Virus record (IMG/VR): IMGVR_UViG_3300007735_000515 | Coordinates: 1-24,638 of that record | From: a virus | Strand: one strand, 5' to 3' | Length of the DNA: 24,638 bases | In this document: positions 9,116 through 15,871 of the stretch, piece after piece | How positions within the stretch are numbered: position 1 is the stretch's first letter | Layout: each line of letters starts with the position of its first letter | Position numbers and translations under genes: made by a program | The notes under the pieces: model-generated | Told to the model about the DNA's origin: nothing | The model's input: only the letters and a program-made list of their open reading frames with translations | Databases searched by the model: none

Positions 9116-10030
9116 ATGGCTATTTCACGTGCACAGCTCCTAAAAGAGCTATTACCAGGTCTTAACGCGCTATTCGGTTTAGAGTACAAGCGTTATGGCG
9201 AAGAACATAAAGAAGTTTACGAAACAGAAACTTCAGAACGTTCATTCGAAGAAGAAACAAAACTTTCAGGTTTCTCAGCAGCACCAGTCAAAAACGAAGG
9301 CACAGCTATCGCTTATGACAATGCTCAAGAAGCTTGGACAGCTCGATACAATCATCAAACTATCGCTCTTGGCTTCAGCTTAACTGAAGAAGCTGTAGAA
9401 GATAACTTGTATGACACATTATCAGCACGTTACACAAAAGCTTTAGCTCGCGCTATGGCATACACAAAACAAGTTAAAGCAGCTGCAGTATTAAACAATG
9501 GCTTCAACACTTCTGGTTCTTACAACGGCGGTGATGGTGTTTCATTATTTAACACAGCTCACCCACTTGTTTCTGGCGGTACAAACAGCAACACTCAATC
9601 AACTCCAACAGACTTGAACGAAACAGCGTTAGAAAATGCAGTTATTCAAATCGCTGCTTGGACAGATGAGCGTGGTCTTTTAATCGCTGCTCAACCACGT
9701 AAGTTAGTAGTTCCACCTGGCAATCAGTTCGTTGCAACACGCTTGCTCGAAACTGAACTTCGTGTTTCTACAGCTGACAACGACATCAACGCTATTAAGA
9801 ATAATGGTTCAATTCCAGAAGGTTACACAATTAACCACTTCTTAACAGATCCTGATGCGTACTTCTTAACAACTGATGTTCCTAACGGCATGAAGCACTT
9901 TGTGCGTACACCATTATCAACATCTATGGATGGCGACTTCGACACAGGTAACGTACGTTACAAAGCTCGTGAGCGTTATTCATTTGGTTGGTCAGATCCT
10001 CTCGGTATGTGGGGTTCACCAGGCGCTTAA
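9116..10030 (+). CDS. Major capsid protein, Mu gpT-like
   Basis: The main shell protein, expected to have the HK97 fold. The 304-residue sequence shows features I associate with Mu gpT-type major head subunits: an N-terminal helical start (AISRAQLLKELLPGLNALFG), a helix around residues 100-125 (SARYTKALARAMAYTKQV), the loop DGVSLFNTAHPLVSGGT (about 140-156), then RGLLIAAQPRKLVVPPG (about 186-202) and the C-terminal RYSFGWSDPLGMWGSPGA. The AAGGAG ribosome site is strong. A terminator directly after the gene limits read-through, so capsid output may be tuned separately from the downstream virion genes. Codon choice looks more optimised (more GC-ending codons) than in neighbouring low-expression genes. 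Confidence 0.92.
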   Translation: MAISRAQLLKELLPGLNALFGLEYKRYGEEHKEVYETETSERSFEEETKLSGFSAAPVKNEGTAIAYDNAQEAWTARYNHQTIALGFSLTEEAVEDNLYDTLSARYTKALARAMAYTKQVKAAAVLNNGFNTSGSYNGGDGVSLFNTAHPLVSGGTNSNTQSTPTDLNETALENAVIQIAAWTDERGLLIAAQPRKLVVPPGNQFVATRLLETELRVSTADNDINAIKNNGSIPEGYTINHFLTDPDAYFLTTDVPNGMKHFVRTPLSTSMDGDFDTGNVRYKARERYSFGWSDPLGMWGSPGA

Positions 10031-10055
10031 TAGCAACTGGCTACGTACTATTAAA

Positions 10056-10086
10056 GGGGCTTGCTTAAAACGCAGGCCCTTTTTTC
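10056..10086 (+). terminator. Rho-independent terminator after the capsid gene
   Basis: Stem GGGCTTGC (10057-10064) with GCAGGCCC (10072-10079), one G-T wobble, a 7-base loop and a run of T (10080-10085). It separates the head operon from the pqqA cassette. Confidence 0.85.
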
Positions 10087-10125
10087 ATGGTTTTACGTAA
10101 GAATAAAAGTCAAAAAAGTAATATA

Positions 10126-10154
10126 TTGACAACTGTACACATAGGGTGTACTAA
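10126..10154 (+). promoter_or_regulatory. Strong sigma70-type promoter for pqqA
   Basis: A perfect -35, TTGACA (10126-10131), a 17-base spacer and the -10 TACTAA (10149-10154). Transcription would begin near 10161, about 28 bases before the pqqA ATG. It is the closest match to the bacterial consensus that I see in the window, and it sits inside the structural gene block right after a terminator. Confidence 0.85.
10135..10151. promoter_or_regulatory. Operator-like palindrome inside the pqqA promoter
   Basis: GTACAC (10135-10140), five bases, GTGTAC (10146-10151): perfect six-base arms lying in the spacer and running into the -10. A bound regulator would block RNA polymerase. No candidate regulator gene is adjacent, so a host or distant phage protein would have to act here. 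Confidence 0.5.
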
Positions 10155-10188
10155 AATATAGAACAATTGATTTACTAAGGAGAACGTT

Positions 10189-10260
10189 ATGTGGACTAAA
10201 CCAGTAGCAACAGAAATGAGATTTGGCTTTGAAGTAACTATGTACGTAATGAACAAGTAA
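10189..10260 (+). CDS. pqqA: PqqA: PQQ precursor peptide
   Basis: This 23-residue ORF reads as a complete PqqA, the ribosomally made peptide from which pyrroloquinoline quinone is built. In known systems PqqE (radical SAM), with chaperone PqqD, crosslinks a Glu and a Tyr of PqqA; the product is then cut out and oxidised by other Pqq enzymes. The required pair is present as E15 and Y19 in EVTMY, the same positions as in the 23-residue Klebsiella peptide as I recall it. The MWTKP start and RFGFEVTMY core also match proteobacterial PqqA. RBS AAGGAG lies 5 bases before the ATG. The gene has its own promoter, an operator-like site and terminators on both sides. No other pqq gene is in the window, so host enzymes would be needed. 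It is too short for default gene finders. Confidence 0.92.
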   Translation: MWTKPVATEMRFGFEVTMYVMNK

Positions 10261-10289
10261 TGATTATAGTAACTGATTGCTATTAAATT

Positions 10290-10311
10290 AGGGGCTTCGG
10301 CCCCTTTTTTT
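10290..10311 (+). terminator. Rho-independent terminator after pqqA
   Basis: Stem AGGGGC / GCCCCT closed by a TTCG tetraloop (C(UUCG)G in RNA, a very stable loop), followed by T residues to 10311. It ends the one-gene pqqA transcript 30 bases after the stop. Confidence 0.92.
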
Positions 10312-10312
10312 A

Positions 10313-11946: not shown

Positions 11947-12189
11947 ATGAAATCTTTTATAGACAGAGTGTTTAAATCAAAACAACAAAAGCAAAAGGAA
12001 CTATTAGATGACATCACTAATACAGAAGTTATTGAAGAAAATAAAGAAATACTTAGCAAACAAATTGAAATAAGTATTAAAAAACACGTAGAAGAAGTAA
12101 AAGAAGAAGTAGTTAAACATAAAAAACCTAACCACTTCCCAGATTGTAATTGTTTTAAATGTTTAAGGTGGAAACAACATGCCCAGTAA
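11947..12189 (+). CDS. Small charged protein with C-terminal Cys cluster
   Basis: An 80-residue Lys/Glu-rich helical protein. Most of it (8-60) could be a coiled coil. The C-terminus has H63 and C67-x-C69-x2-C72 in the context HFPDCNCFKCLRW, a possible metal-binding knuckle. It begins two bases after the XhlA-like gene and overlaps the next gene by 11 bases, so it is likely coupled to both. There is no signal peptide or membrane segment, so it is not an Rz/Rz1-type spanin. I do not recognise a family. Confidence 0.7.
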   Translation: MKSFIDRVFKSKQQKQKELLDDITNTEVIEENKEILSKQIEISIKKHVEEVKEEVVKHKKPNHFPDCNCFKCLRWKQHAQ

Positions 12190-12739
12190 ATCAAAAGCAC
12201 AACACAACTTAATGGCTGCAGTGGCTAATAACCCAAAGTTTGCTAAAAAAGTTGGTATTAAAAAATCAATAGGAGAAGAATTTATGAAAGCAGATAAAAG
12301 TAAGAAGTTCGCATCAGGCGGATCACTTAAAGAAGTTAATTCAAGTGAGAATCCTGGTTTATCAAAATTACCAACGGAGGTTAGGAATAAAATGGGCTAC
12401 ATGAAAAAAGGTGGTATGGCTAAAGGCTATGCAAAAGGTGGTTGTGCAACTAAATCTGATGCAAAGATGATTGCTAAAAAAGAAGTTAAAGGACATGAAT
12501 CATCAATGCATGGTATGAAAAAAGGTGGAGCTTGTAAAGGCTACGCTAAAGGTGGCATTATAGAAAAAGGCACTAAAGAAAAATATGCATCTAAAGCTGC
12601 TATGATGAAACACGAAAAGAAAGAATCTAAATCAGAAGAAATGAAAGAACACGGTATGAAAAAAGGCGGCATGTGTGGTAAGTATGCACGTGGCGGTGGC
12701 GTGGAGAAAAAAGGTAAAACAAAAGGTAAATTAATTTAA
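12179..12739 (+). CDS. Lys/Gly-rich repeat protein with KGKTKGK tail
   Basis: A 186-residue, very basic protein. The N-terminal 35 residues (KSKAQHNLMAAVANNPKFAK, then VGIKKSIGEEF) resemble a small domain I recall as DUF3008-like (not verified). The rest is low complexity with repeated KKGGMAKGYAKGG, KKGGACKGYAKGG and KKGGMCGKYARGG units carrying regular Cys/His/Met residues, ending GKTKGKLI. That end matches the tag on several neighbours (12751, 13380, 15677). It may bind DNA, RNA or an acidic virion surface. The repeats resemble no enzyme. A ribosome site, AGGTGG, precedes the ATG. The function is unknown. Confidence 0.75.
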   Translation: MPSKSKAQHNLMAAVANNPKFAKKVGIKKSIGEEFMKADKSKKFASGGSLKEVNSSENPGLSKLPTEVRNKMGYMKKGGMAKGYAKGGCATKSDAKMIAKKEVKGHESSMHGMKKGGACKGYAKGGIIEKGTKEKYASKAAMMKHEKKESKSEEMKEHGMKKGGMCGKYARGGGVEKKGKTKGKLI

Positions 12740-12750
12740 GGAGTATAAAA

Positions 12751-13377
12751 ATGGCTGGTTTAAAAATATTTGGAAAAACATTAGTAGAAGATGAAGACAT
12801 GCCAAAACTTAAAATTTTAGGTAAAGAAATTACTGAACCTGAAATGAAAATTTTAGGAAAAACAGGTAAAGAAATTAACGAAGCCATGAAAGGTGATGGT
12901 AAGTTAAGAGTTTTTGGACAAACGTTAGAGGATATGCGTCAAAATAGACGTAAGACTGGAGAAACATTTCCATCTAAATTTACTAAAAATACATTATCAC
13001 AATCAAGTATTGATAATTTACAACCTTCTGTAGCTTCACGAGTAGATTTTAGTGATGAAAAAAAAGGTCCTAATTTTAAAGTAGCTAAAAAACAAACTAA
13101 AAAAACTGAAACAAAAGAAGGAGAAAGAGGCAGTGTAGATAGAACTGATGAAGTTAAAGCTTCTGGTCCTGATATGGGTAAAGTAAATAAAGAAGAATCT
13201 AAACCAGCTAGAGAATTTACTGCCACAGAAAAAGCTCAAAATTTAATGTCTCCTGGTTATAACAAGAAAAAAGGTGGCGTTATTAAAAAGATGGCTTCAG
13301 GTGGTAAAGTAGGTTCTGCATCACGTCGAGCTGATGGATGTGCAATGCGTGGTAAAACAAAAGGGAGAATAATTTAA
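12751..13377 (+). CDS. Unrecognised protein with KILGK repeats and GKTKGR tail
   Basis: A 208-residue charged protein. The first 60 residues contain four short similar units (LKIFGKTL, LKILGKEI, MKILGKTG, LRVFGQTL) spaced about 15-20 residues apart, like repeated beta-hairpins. The middle is Lys/Glu/Ser-rich and probably disordered. The C-terminus, KKMASGGKVGSASRRADGC, then GKTKGRII, nearly matches the next protein's end (SSASSRADGCC, GKTKGRIV). AAGGAG lies upstream. It is followed two bases later by the next tagged gene. The shared tail suggests a common partner or location for these proteins. Confidence 0.75.
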   Translation: MAGLKIFGKTLVEDEDMPKLKILGKEITEPEMKILGKTGKEINEAMKGDGKLRVFGQTLEDMRQNRRKTGETFPSKFTKNTLSQSSIDNLQPSVASRVDFSDEKKGPNFKVAKKQTKKTETKEGERGSVDRTDEVKASGPDMGKVNKEESKPAREFTATEKAQNLMSPGYNKKKGGVIKKMASGGKVGSASRRADGCAMRGKTKGRII

Positions 13378-13379
13378 TC

Positions 13380-13661
13380 ATGGCTGAAAAAGATCCAAAT
13401 CAAATGGCAGCTGAAAAGCTAGATAAAGAAACAAAAAAAGCTCAAGCTGATCAAGCAGCTAAGTTAGAAGAAGCATCAGAAAAAGTAAGACAAGGTAAAA
13501 TTCAACCTCCTACAAATAATGATATGGGTCCACTACCTAAAAAGAACTCTAAAGGTGCTGGATTAGTAAGACCTTATAAAAAAGGTGGTTCAGTTTCATC
13601 AGCTTCATCACGTGCAGATGGCTGTTGCACAAAAGGTAAAACAAAAGGTAGGATTGTATAA
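13380..13661 (+). CDS. Small tagged protein (ADGC-GKTKGR tail)
   Basis: A 93-residue protein. The N-terminal half is an Ala/Lys/Glu/Gln helix (1-45), followed by a Pro-rich linker (PPTNNDMGPLP) and the C-terminal tag KKGGSVSSASSRADGC, then TKGKTKGRIV. The tag is shared with the upstream protein almost residue for residue. Its stop overlaps the next start by one base. I recall this ADG(x)nGKTKGR ending from small proteins of many uncultured phages. No function is established as far as I know. The helical N-terminus would be the specific part and the tail the common part. Confidence 0.75.
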   Translation: MAEKDPNQMAAEKLDKETKKAQADQAAKLEEASEKVRQGKIQPPTNNDMGPLPKKNSKGAGLVRPYKKGGSVSSASSRADGCCTKGKTKGRIV

Positions 13662-13957
13662 TGAGATCATCACGTGGTATGGGCTCAATTAAAAAATCTA
13701 AAATACCAGGTGCTATGCCTAATAAGATGCCTAAAGGCAAGGTAAAAGCCCGTCGTGATAATACTGACTTTACACAATACAAAGAAGGTGGAAGCGTGAA
13801 TGCAGCGGGTAACTACACAAAGCCATCACTTCGTAAAAGAATCGTATCACAAGTTAAAGCTGCAGCAACACACGGTACAGGCGCTGGTCAATGGTCCGCT
13901 CGTAAAGCACAGTTAGTTGCTAAGAAATATAAAGCTGCAGGTGGCGGATACAAGTGA
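13661..13957 (+). CDS. Small basic protein with GQWSARKAQ motif
   Basis: A 98-residue, highly basic protein. The N-terminus (RSSRGMGSIKKSKIPGAMP) is low complexity. Residues 52-98 form a compact conserved-looking module: AGNYTKPSLRKRIVSQVKAA, then HGTGAGQWSARKAQLVAKKY ending in GGGYK. I recall this module in many phage and some cyanobacterial or planctomycete proteins, where it is of unknown function. It is probably a small helical domain with nucleic-acid-binding charge. It overlaps the previous gene by one base and the next by four (GTGA). It also shares the KEGGSV linker with its neighbours. Confidence 0.75.
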   Translation: MRSSRGMGSIKKSKIPGAMPNKMPKGKVKARRDNTDFTQYKEGGSVNAAGNYTKPSLRKRIVSQVKAAATHGTGAGQWSARKAQLVAKKYKAAGGGYK

Positions 13958-14301
13958 GTTGGTCTAAAAAGTATAAAGAGTCTATTGATTGTAAGAATCC
14001 TAAAGGGTTTTCTCAAAAGGCTCATTGTGCTGGACGTAAAAAGAAAATGGCAAGTGGTGGCTTAGCTAAACCTCAACAATCGTTAAAAGCTTGGGGTGAT
14101 CAAAAGTGGAGAACTAAGTCTGGTAAAAAGTCTAGTGAGACAGGGGAGCGATATTTACCAGAAAATGCAATTAAAGCTTTAAGCCCACAAGAGTATGCTG
14201 CTACAACAAAAGCAAAAAGAGCAGGTAAAGCTAAAGGCAAACAGTTTGTAGCTCAACCTAAATCTATTAAACAAAAAGTAAAACCTTTTAGAAAAATATA
14301 A
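13954..14301 (+). CDS. Small basic protein with GERYLP motif
   Basis: A 115-residue basic protein that starts at GTG (13954), overlapping the previous stop as GTGA. The N-terminal SWSKKYKESIDCKNPKGFSQ, then KAHCAGRKKK, holds two cysteines. A MASGG linker follows, and then a module SLKAWGDQKWRTKSGK ... TGERYLPENAIKALSPQEYA (about 43-88) with a basic tail. I recall the second module as a widespread domain of unknown function in phages and environmental bacteria (possibly DUF5872; not verified). Its conserved Trp, Arg and Glu residues suggest a real fold. The function is unknown. The gene is the last of a coupled run of small basic proteins. Confidence 0.75.
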   Translation: MSWSKKYKESIDCKNPKGFSQKAHCAGRKKKMASGGLAKPQQSLKAWGDQKWRTKSGKKSSETGERYLPENAIKALSPQEYAATTKAKRAGKAKGKQFVAQPKSIKQKVKPFRKI

Positions 14302-14303
14302 AT

Positions 14304-15230
14304 ATGGTAGATAGAACCTCAGGAACCACGAGTTTTAACCTAGATTTAAATAACCTTGTTGAAGATGCATTTGAGCGTTGTGGACAAGAACTACGTACTG
14401 GATATGATCTACGTACTGCACGACGTTCTTTAAACTTGATGACAATTGAATGGGCTAACCGCGGTATTAATATGTGGACTGTAGAACCTGGTCAAATTAA
14501 TATGAACCAAGGACAGATCATGTATGCATTACCTACTGACACTATAGATCTTTTAGATATGGTAACTCGTACTGGCACAGGATCAAACCAACAAGACATT
14601 AATATTAACCGAATTAGCGAGTCAACGTATATTACAATACCAAATAAAAACGCTACAGGCCGTCCTATTCAAGTATGGATTAATAGACAAAGTGGCCAAG
14701 AAAACCCTACTACGATAACCACTGCTGAAGCTTTAGATGCAACAGAAACAACGATTACATTATCTTCTACTGTAGGCTTAGCACAATTTGGATTTATTAA
14801 AGTAGATAGTGAAACAATTCAATATGGTGGTATAAGTGGTAATGATTTAACAGGTTGCATACGCGGTGTTAATAATACAACTGCGGCAACACATACAACA
14901 GCATCAAGAGTTTATGTGCAAAACTTACCCACAATAAATGTATGGCCAGCACCAGATCAAAGTAATTTTTATCAGTTTGTATATTACAGACTACGACGTA
15001 TACAAGATGCAGGAAATGGTGTGACCGTAGAGGATATTCCATTTAGATTTATACCTTGCATGGTTGCAGGATTAGCTGCGTATTTAAGTATGAAATTACC
15101 TAATGTAGCACCTGATAGAATTCAGATGTTACGAGCAGATTATGAAGCAGCGTTCCAATTAGCTGCAGATGAAGATAGAGAAAAAGCATCAGTTAGGTTT
15201 GTACCACGAGAAATGTTTTATCACGGATAA
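14304..15230 (+). CDS. Head-tail connector/tail-tube-A-like protein
   Basis: A 308-residue protein. The N-terminal helical part (FNLDLNNLVEDAFERCGQEL, 11-30; RTARRSLNLMTIEWANRGIN, 37-56) and PTDTIDLLDMV (77-87) fit connector or tail-tubular-A-like proteins that join portal to tail in short-tailed phages. INVWPAPDQSNFYQFVYYRL (211-230) belongs to the same pattern. The C-terminal helical region (240-308) is typical. Residues about 136-207 (ALDATETTITLSSTVGLAQF, then DLTGCIRGVNNTTAATHTTA) look like an inserted beta module. The start is two bases after the previous stop. Structural role is likely; the exact connector position is inferred. Confidence 0.65.
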   Translation: MVDRTSGTTSFNLDLNNLVEDAFERCGQELRTGYDLRTARRSLNLMTIEWANRGINMWTVEPGQINMNQGQIMYALPTDTIDLLDMVTRTGTGSNQQDININRISESTYITIPNKNATGRPIQVWINRQSGQENPTTITTAEALDATETTITLSSTVGLAQFGFIKVDSETIQYGGISGNDLTGCIRGVNNTTAATHTTASRVYVQNLPTINVWPAPDQSNFYQFVYYRLRRIQDAGNGVTVEDIPFRFIPCMVAGLAAYLSMKLPNVAPDRIQMLRADYEAAFQLAADEDREKASVRFVPREMFYHG

Positions 15231-15234
15231 TTAA

Positions 15235-15666
15235 ATGCCTAGTAAATATTCAAGTGGTAAACATGCAATTGCCCAGTGTGATAGATGTAATTTTAGGTAT
15301 CCACTAAAGCAACTGAAAAGATTGGTTATTAAGACCAAAAATGTTAATATACTTGTATGTCCTGAATGTTGGGAACCGGATCAACCACAGTTAAGTCTTG
15401 GTCTTTATCCAGTAAATGACCCACAAGCAGTGCGTAATCCAAGACCTGATAGTCCTAGTTATTATCAATCAGGATTAGATGGATTACAAACTATAGAGCA
15501 AACAGGACCATTGCAAACTGAAACTGGAGTACCTTTAGGTGGTAGTCGAGTATTTCAATGGGGTTGGGCACCTGTAGGTGGCGCTTCATATTTTGATTCA
15601 GAGTTAACACCTAATTATTTAGTAGGTGCAAGTGCTTTAGGTTCAGTAACAGTAACAATTTCATAG
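15235..15666 (+). CDS. Zinc-ribbon virion-associated protein
   Basis: A 143-residue protein. Two CxxC pairs, CDRC (15-18) and CPEC (42-45), are spaced as in a zinc ribbon. The segment HPR-like PVNDPQAVRNPRPDSPSYY follows (about 58-77), then a Gly/Thr-rich tail. I recall proteins with this exact order (ribbon then NPRPD) beside connector genes in aquatic phages; their function is unreported to my knowledge. Neighbours suggest a connector or tail accessory, with the zinc ribbon as a structural clip. The start is five bases after the previous stop, without a strong ribosome site. Confidence 0.75.
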   Translation: MPSKYSSGKHAIAQCDRCNFRYPLKQLKRLVIKTKNVNILVCPECWEPDQPQLSLGLYPVNDPQAVRNPRPDSPSYYQSGLDGLQTIEQTGPLQTETGVPLGGSRVFQWGWAPVGGASYFDSELTPNYLVGASALGSVTVTIS

Positions 15667-15676
15667 GAGAAATAAA

Positions 15677-15871
15677 ATGGCATATAAATCAGGCGCAGAC
15701 GGTATTACTAAACAAGGTAAAACTAAAGGTCGTAACTTAGGTGACGACGGAGCTAAAGTAGGCATTTCAAAAGGCCCTAAACATGCAGGTTCTAAAGGTG
15801 GTAAAAAGAACATTGACATGAAAACTATGGGTCGTGGTATGGCTAAAGTTGCAGCACAGAAAAAAGGATAA
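15677..15871 (+). CDS. Small Gly/Lys-rich protein with N-terminal GKTKGR tag
   Basis: A 64-residue, very basic protein. It carries SGADGITKQGKTKGR at residues 5-19, the same ADG...GKTKGR tag that ends three proteins at 12179-13661, but here at the N-terminus. The rest is Lys/Gly/Asp-rich with GISKGPKHAGSKGGKKN. AGGAGA lies just upstream. The tag's change of position suggests it is a portable module rather than a chance tail. Confidence 0.75.
   Translation: MAYKSGADGITKQGKTKGRNLGDDGAKVGISKGPKHAGSKGGKKNIDMKTMGRGMAKVAAQKKG

Follow-up and report, generated by a model that had tools for sequence, protein, structure and literature searches.

The viral DNA analyzed here (IMG/VR record IMGVR_UViG_3300007735_000515, all 24,638 nucleotides of it, referred to below as the window) carries a gene for PqqA, the PQQ precursor peptide, that is a real phage gene, looks functional, and is one member of a large, overlooked set. 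Phage pqqA most likely raises the supply of a PQQ precursor that is consumed during synthesis, under control of the host type. For the cassette in the window, we consider it quite probable that pqqA was derived from a host, is placed under a host PQQ control site, and increases the amount of the consumed precursor during infection. PqqD and PqqE crosslink a Glu and a Tyr residue of PqqA in the course of PQQ synthesis, after which proteases, PqqB, and PqqC act.

The window encodes a member of the PqqA family

The pqqA open reading frame (positions 10189–10260, + strand) has 23 codons and encodes the peptide MWTKPVATEMRFGFEVTMYVMNK. An original prediction made from the letters of the sequence had identified this product as a PqqA carrying the Glu15/Tyr19 pair, and the results named as speaking against it had included the lack of a significant profile match and relatives without a conserved E-x3-Y. 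Profile searches gave the opposite of the former, with 38 bits against Pfam PF08042 (cut-off 21.1) and 36.3 bits against NCBIfam TIGR02107 (cut-off 20), both far above chance. E15 and Y19 have the spacing that fits the PqqE crosslink, and E-x3-Y is retained in every relative examined. PHROGs yielded no match for the peptide.

The window peptide exactly matches PqqA on a contig of a Methylophilaceae metagenome-assembled genome. This contig appears to be chromosomal because its neighboring open reading frames resemble thiamine-synthesis and regulatory genes. Across 13 phage pqqA copies, picked without a motif criterion, pN/pS is 0.18, and the phage peptide is therefore under purifying selection that acts at the protein level. 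The leader of PqqA is conserved together with the core in the phage copies, with conservation at the same positions as in the PqqA family.

The pqqA cassette lies within a phage gene region

The features of the cassette and its upstream neighbor, all on the + strand, are as follows.

9116–10030, +: gene for the major capsid protein, preceding the cassette (Pfam Mu-like_gpT, 38.6 bits; PHROG 371, major head protein)
10053–10083, +: intrinsic terminator of the capsid gene, consisting of a 12-bp stem with a T run behind it (z −4.2)
10084–10100, +: putative host-type PQQ regulatory box, TTCATGG-TTT-TACGTAA (12.5 bits; center at 10092, about −42 from the predicted transcription start)
10122–10127, +: predicted −10 hexamer TATATT (5/6 to consensus; placed by its spacing to the box center and hairpin)
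10135–10151, +: predicted 5′-terminal mRNA hairpin, GTACAC-ATAGG-GTGTAC (folds; compensatory change in relative L019)
10177–10182, +: ribosome binding site AAGGAG (from the sequence; a similar purine-rich site has the same position in most relatives)
10189–10260, +: pqqA, PQQ precursor peptide (PF08042 and TIGR02107)
10290–10312, +: intrinsic terminator for pqqA, in which a T run comes after AGGGGC-UUCG-GCCCCU (site scan and folding)

This layout agrees with most of what had been predicted: a strong ribosome site ahead of the ATG, a UUCG terminator, and a position between a separately terminated capsid gene and the next phage gene. No further pqq gene was noticed among the open reading frames of the 24.6-kb record, again as predicted, and no Rfam match was found in the window. 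The capsid protein is 64–73% identical to the capsid proteins of several annotated phages, and pqqA directly follows the capsid gene in the window and in relatives L001, L019, L049, and L051. The neighboring phage genes, the same placement in relatives, and the presence of pqqA in complete isolate genomes establish that the gene is phage-encoded and not host contamination.

Elsewhere in the window, four small basic proteins encoded at 12179–15871 (+) carry a tag resembling SRADGCxxxGKTKGRI(I/V) or GKTKGKLI, which is near the C terminus in three of the four. Near the contig end (21884–24051, +), genes for two 2OG-Fe(II) oxygenase-like proteins, one unassigned protein, and one APS-kinase-like protein stand in a row.

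The promoter appears to be of an activator-dependent type

One part of the original prediction fared poorly. A near-consensus promoter with TTGACA (10126–10131) as its −35 element had been proposed, and this assignment is probably wrong: the site scan did not report that promoter, and relatives point to another architecture. The comparative data place a −10 (TATATT) that overlaps TTGACA, with a 5′-terminal hairpin closely following it and a regulatory box on the upstream side. The window promoter thus looks activator-dependent, with a box of the host type, rather than of the TTGACA type. When scanned with a matrix derived from host pqqA promoters only, the window contains a single match of 8 bits or more, which is the box at 10084–10100; its second half deviates from the palindrome. 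We infer the −10 from its spacing on both sides, given that TATATT is 30 bp from the box center (phage peak, 30–32) and that the hairpin starts 8 nucleotides after it (phage peak, 6–8).

The GTACAC-GTGTAC repeat was also considered as a protein operator, but an mRNA hairpin fits better because the arms vary while pairing is kept and because the start of the hairpin coincides with the expected start of transcription. For example, the stem in relative L019, GTATAC-ATTGG-GTATAC, represents a compensatory change relative to that of the window. Hairpin stems are enriched in viral pqqA leaders, and −10 hexamers are enriched approximately threefold 6–8 nucleotides ahead of the stem (26 versus 8.9). 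Host pqqA leaders show this trend less clearly for the hairpin.

Host and phage pqqA promoters share a palindromic box

PqqA peptides of the MRFGFEVTMY type are found chiefly in Methylophilaceae and Methylophaga genomes. Among 150 Methylophilaceae genomes, 149 encode PqqA, with 1–12 copies each, and 140 encode a PqqE that scores over the cut-off. The many pqqA copies of host genomes are dispersed. Multiple pqqA genes alongside a single pqqBCDE set are already known (PMC4109929), and the phage copy may be regarded as an extension of this existing host dosage strategy.

The promoters of host pqqA and pqqB share a 17-bp palindrome, CTMAKGA-AAA-TCMTKAG, whose center lies approximately 52 bp upstream of the −10. 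The same palindrome accounts for the k-mers recovered from viral leaders (TTMATGRTTTT) and from host leaders (AAAATCMTGA). A box matrix was built from 96 host sites only and was afterwards applied to viruses. By this measure, 67.5% of 123 non-redundant viral leaders score 8 or more, compared with 0.9% of shuffled leaders. Moreover, 81 of the 98 matches scoring 12 or more in 1.4 Mb of viral loci fall 30–220 nucleotides upstream of pqqA, against an expectation of 2.2 in that interval. Eight host genomes together contain 15 sites that deviate by no more than one mismatch, of which 14 are located at pqqA or pqqB, where pqqB was identified from its sequence and not by profile search. In Methylophilaceae, the palindrome marks the pqqB operon as well as copies of pqqA and is a candidate PQQ regulon site. 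Host examples are present at loci L383 and L407 (pqqB) and at L381, L387, and L395 (pqqA), and Methylophaga has the form CTCAGGAAAATCCTGAG. One perfect box, at L384 (host genome G033, position 1854002), is not near pqq genes but lies between a divergently oriented gene pair whose products look secreted.

The box keeps a fixed distance from the −10 upstream of pqqA and pqqB, with the distance between its center and the −10 peaking at 51–53 bp in hosts and at 30–32 bp in phages, where there is also a minor peak at 51–53. The phage box is thus typically nearer the −10 by 21 bp, or two helical turns. Compared with known activator sites, the host distance resembles class I and the phage distance class II. 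Among named phages, the best box scores are 18.4 (Melnitz), 17.1 (P19250A), 15.1 (Venkman), 12.8 (Manatee Spring), and 12.5 (MEP301). MEP401 and MEP402 have no recognizable box, which indicates that regulation through the box is not universal. We found no earlier description of a PQQ box in the literature searched; work by Ge et al. in 2015 reportedly dealt with Methylovorus pqqA genes.

Viral pqqA genes are common and mostly unannotated

When the window peptide was used for a tblastn search of 50,697 phage records (INPHARED), 12 matches were obtained, and for nine of them Methylophilales served as the isolation host (Venkman, P19250A, MEP301, MEP401, MEP402, and Melnitz with four records). 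All Methylophilales phages examined therefore carry pqqA, where those examined are these nine records; HIM624-A, Venkman EXVC038S, and MEP431–434 are outside this count. The remaining three matches comprise one uncultured podovirus and two records of Acinetobacter host DNA filed as phage. The latter two, named Acinetobacter phage MD-2021a (L088 and L089; CAKLQF020000010 and CAKLQH020000055), contain pqqABCD as an operon and resemble host chromosome, and their PqqA matches were rejected as phage genes.

Viral pqqA was also sought in IMG/VR by using DNA patterns. The pattern for GFEVTMY matched at least 120 contigs, and all 120 matches listed are short PqqA open reading frames. A pattern for the leader only (M-W-T-x-P-x-A-x-E-M-R-F-G) likewise matched at least 120 contigs, and none of the matches listed lacks E15 or Y19. 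A variant PqqA (GFEITMY) is present on a very large phage contig of 356 kb (L223). The alphaproteobacterial type (GMEVTxYE) was set aside as a viral form, since it was seen on a single contig judged through its open reading frames only. Counting independent phage lineages by shared open reading frames was likewise abandoned because mosaicism merges most contigs, and we claim no number. Within the capsid family of the window, 6 of 81 rows have pqqA; five form one clade and L051 is separate, such that the tree needs two changes.

PqqE scored over the cut-off in none of 50 pqqA-carrying viral records, many of which are fragments. A PQQ alcohol dehydrogenase was detected in one of the 50, leaving pqqA alone in 49. 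A 72-kb viral contig (L143, record G049) carries pqqA with a PQQ-dependent alcohol dehydrogenase (608 bits), resembling a report from Lake Baikal.

The suggestion that viral pqqA is widely overlooked, and the proposal to search viral contigs for it, were borne out by these searches. None of the seven phage records inspected has a PqqA-named feature in its annotation, and two of them have an antisense open reading frame annotated over pqqA. Our literature search of the papers describing Methylophilales phage isolates found no report of the gene, whose length of only 23 codons accounts for its being overlooked. Nevertheless, phage pqqA is not wholly new, having been reported once before: the Lake Baikal virus population VP_266, a predicted Methylophilaceae phage, encodes PqqA (PMC7678222, 2020). 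The passages on VP_266 deal with neither isolates nor regulation. It is likewise a virus-encoded PqqA in a methylotroph phage, but there it accompanies a viral methanol dehydrogenase, whereas in the window pqqA is alone.

Discussion

The profile scores, the E15/Y19 pair, the lack of PqqE among the 50 viral records, and the distribution among phages argue for the central idea of the original prediction, which is that the phage supplies a lone, consumable substrate to a methylotroph host. We propose that pqqA was acquired horizontally from a host that was probably of the Methylophilaceae type, with its PQQ control site retained. The host regulator of the pqqA and pqqB promoters would bind the box at 10084–10100 and, presumably as an activator rather than a repressor, recruit RNA polymerase to the −10 at 10122–10127. 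The product would be a short mRNA bearing hairpins at its two ends, from which PqqA would be translated. Host PqqD and PqqE would then crosslink Glu15 and Tyr19 of the phage peptide, and host proteases, PqqB, and PqqC would complete PQQ. Because one peptide is used per PQQ, extra pqqA would keep PQQ-dependent methanol dehydrogenases loaded during the shutdown of host expression, presumably to the benefit of the phage.

Other roles for the gene can be envisioned. The original prediction offered as its alternative a decoy that titrates PqqD/PqqE and thereby lowers host PQQ, and surplus substrate could indeed compete; conservation of the leader along with the core would also suit such a peptide. 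However, a decoy would gain nothing from retaining the two residues that are crosslinked or a control box of the pqq type, and its case is weakened by the leader-selected viral copies, all of which keep E15 and Y19 among the matches listed. We regard it as very improbable. Scarcely more credible is some other function in infection, either regulation of host PQQ genes by the peptide or a role of the short transcript as RNA. A promoter and hairpin this elaborate for a 23-residue product might hint at such a function, but the positions conserved are those of the PqqA family and selection acts on the protein.

It is also conceivable, though unlikely, that pqqA is a selfish or neutral passenger, acquired by recombination from cassettes that are repeated in host genomes and carried without benefit. 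The many dispersed host copies and the recurrent gains even inside one capsid family would be expected of a passenger. Purifying selection on the peptide, the presence of the gene in every Methylophilales phage examined across unrelated groups, and a conserved phage promoter geometry that differs from that of the host all speak against it.

The provision of a consumed precursor under host-type control therefore remains our preferred reading, and it has parallels. Chromosomal Methylophilaceae pqqA (PF08042/TIGR02107) encodes an identical or nearly identical peptide in a short unit with a strong ribosome binding site, a terminator, and the common 17-bp box. The phage copy differs in its location in the late region, in a box usually 21 bp nearer the −10, and in a weaker second half-site. 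Cyanophage psbA is a host-derived auxiliary metabolic gene that replaces a fast-consumed component and occurs in most phages of one host group, and phage pqqA shares these traits. Unlike psbA, it provides no enzyme or subunit but a peptide substrate that is consumed stoichiometrically; it also appears to retain a host control site.

With less assurance, but on balance in favor, we extend this reading to methylotroph phages as a group. Their auxiliary gene would provide substrate alone and be connected to a previously undescribed host PQQ regulon, with the regulator site reset from a class I-like position near −64 to a class II-like one near −43 and the phage copy responsive to the PQQ or methanol state of the host. 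The gene offers a sequence marker for methylotroph phages and a case in which the provision of a consumed substrate by an auxiliary gene can be tested, and the box is a candidate site for the regulation of PQQ synthesis in hosts. If this reading is true, PQQ supply would be a general target of the viruses that kill methanol-oxidizing bacteria in lakes and coastal seas.
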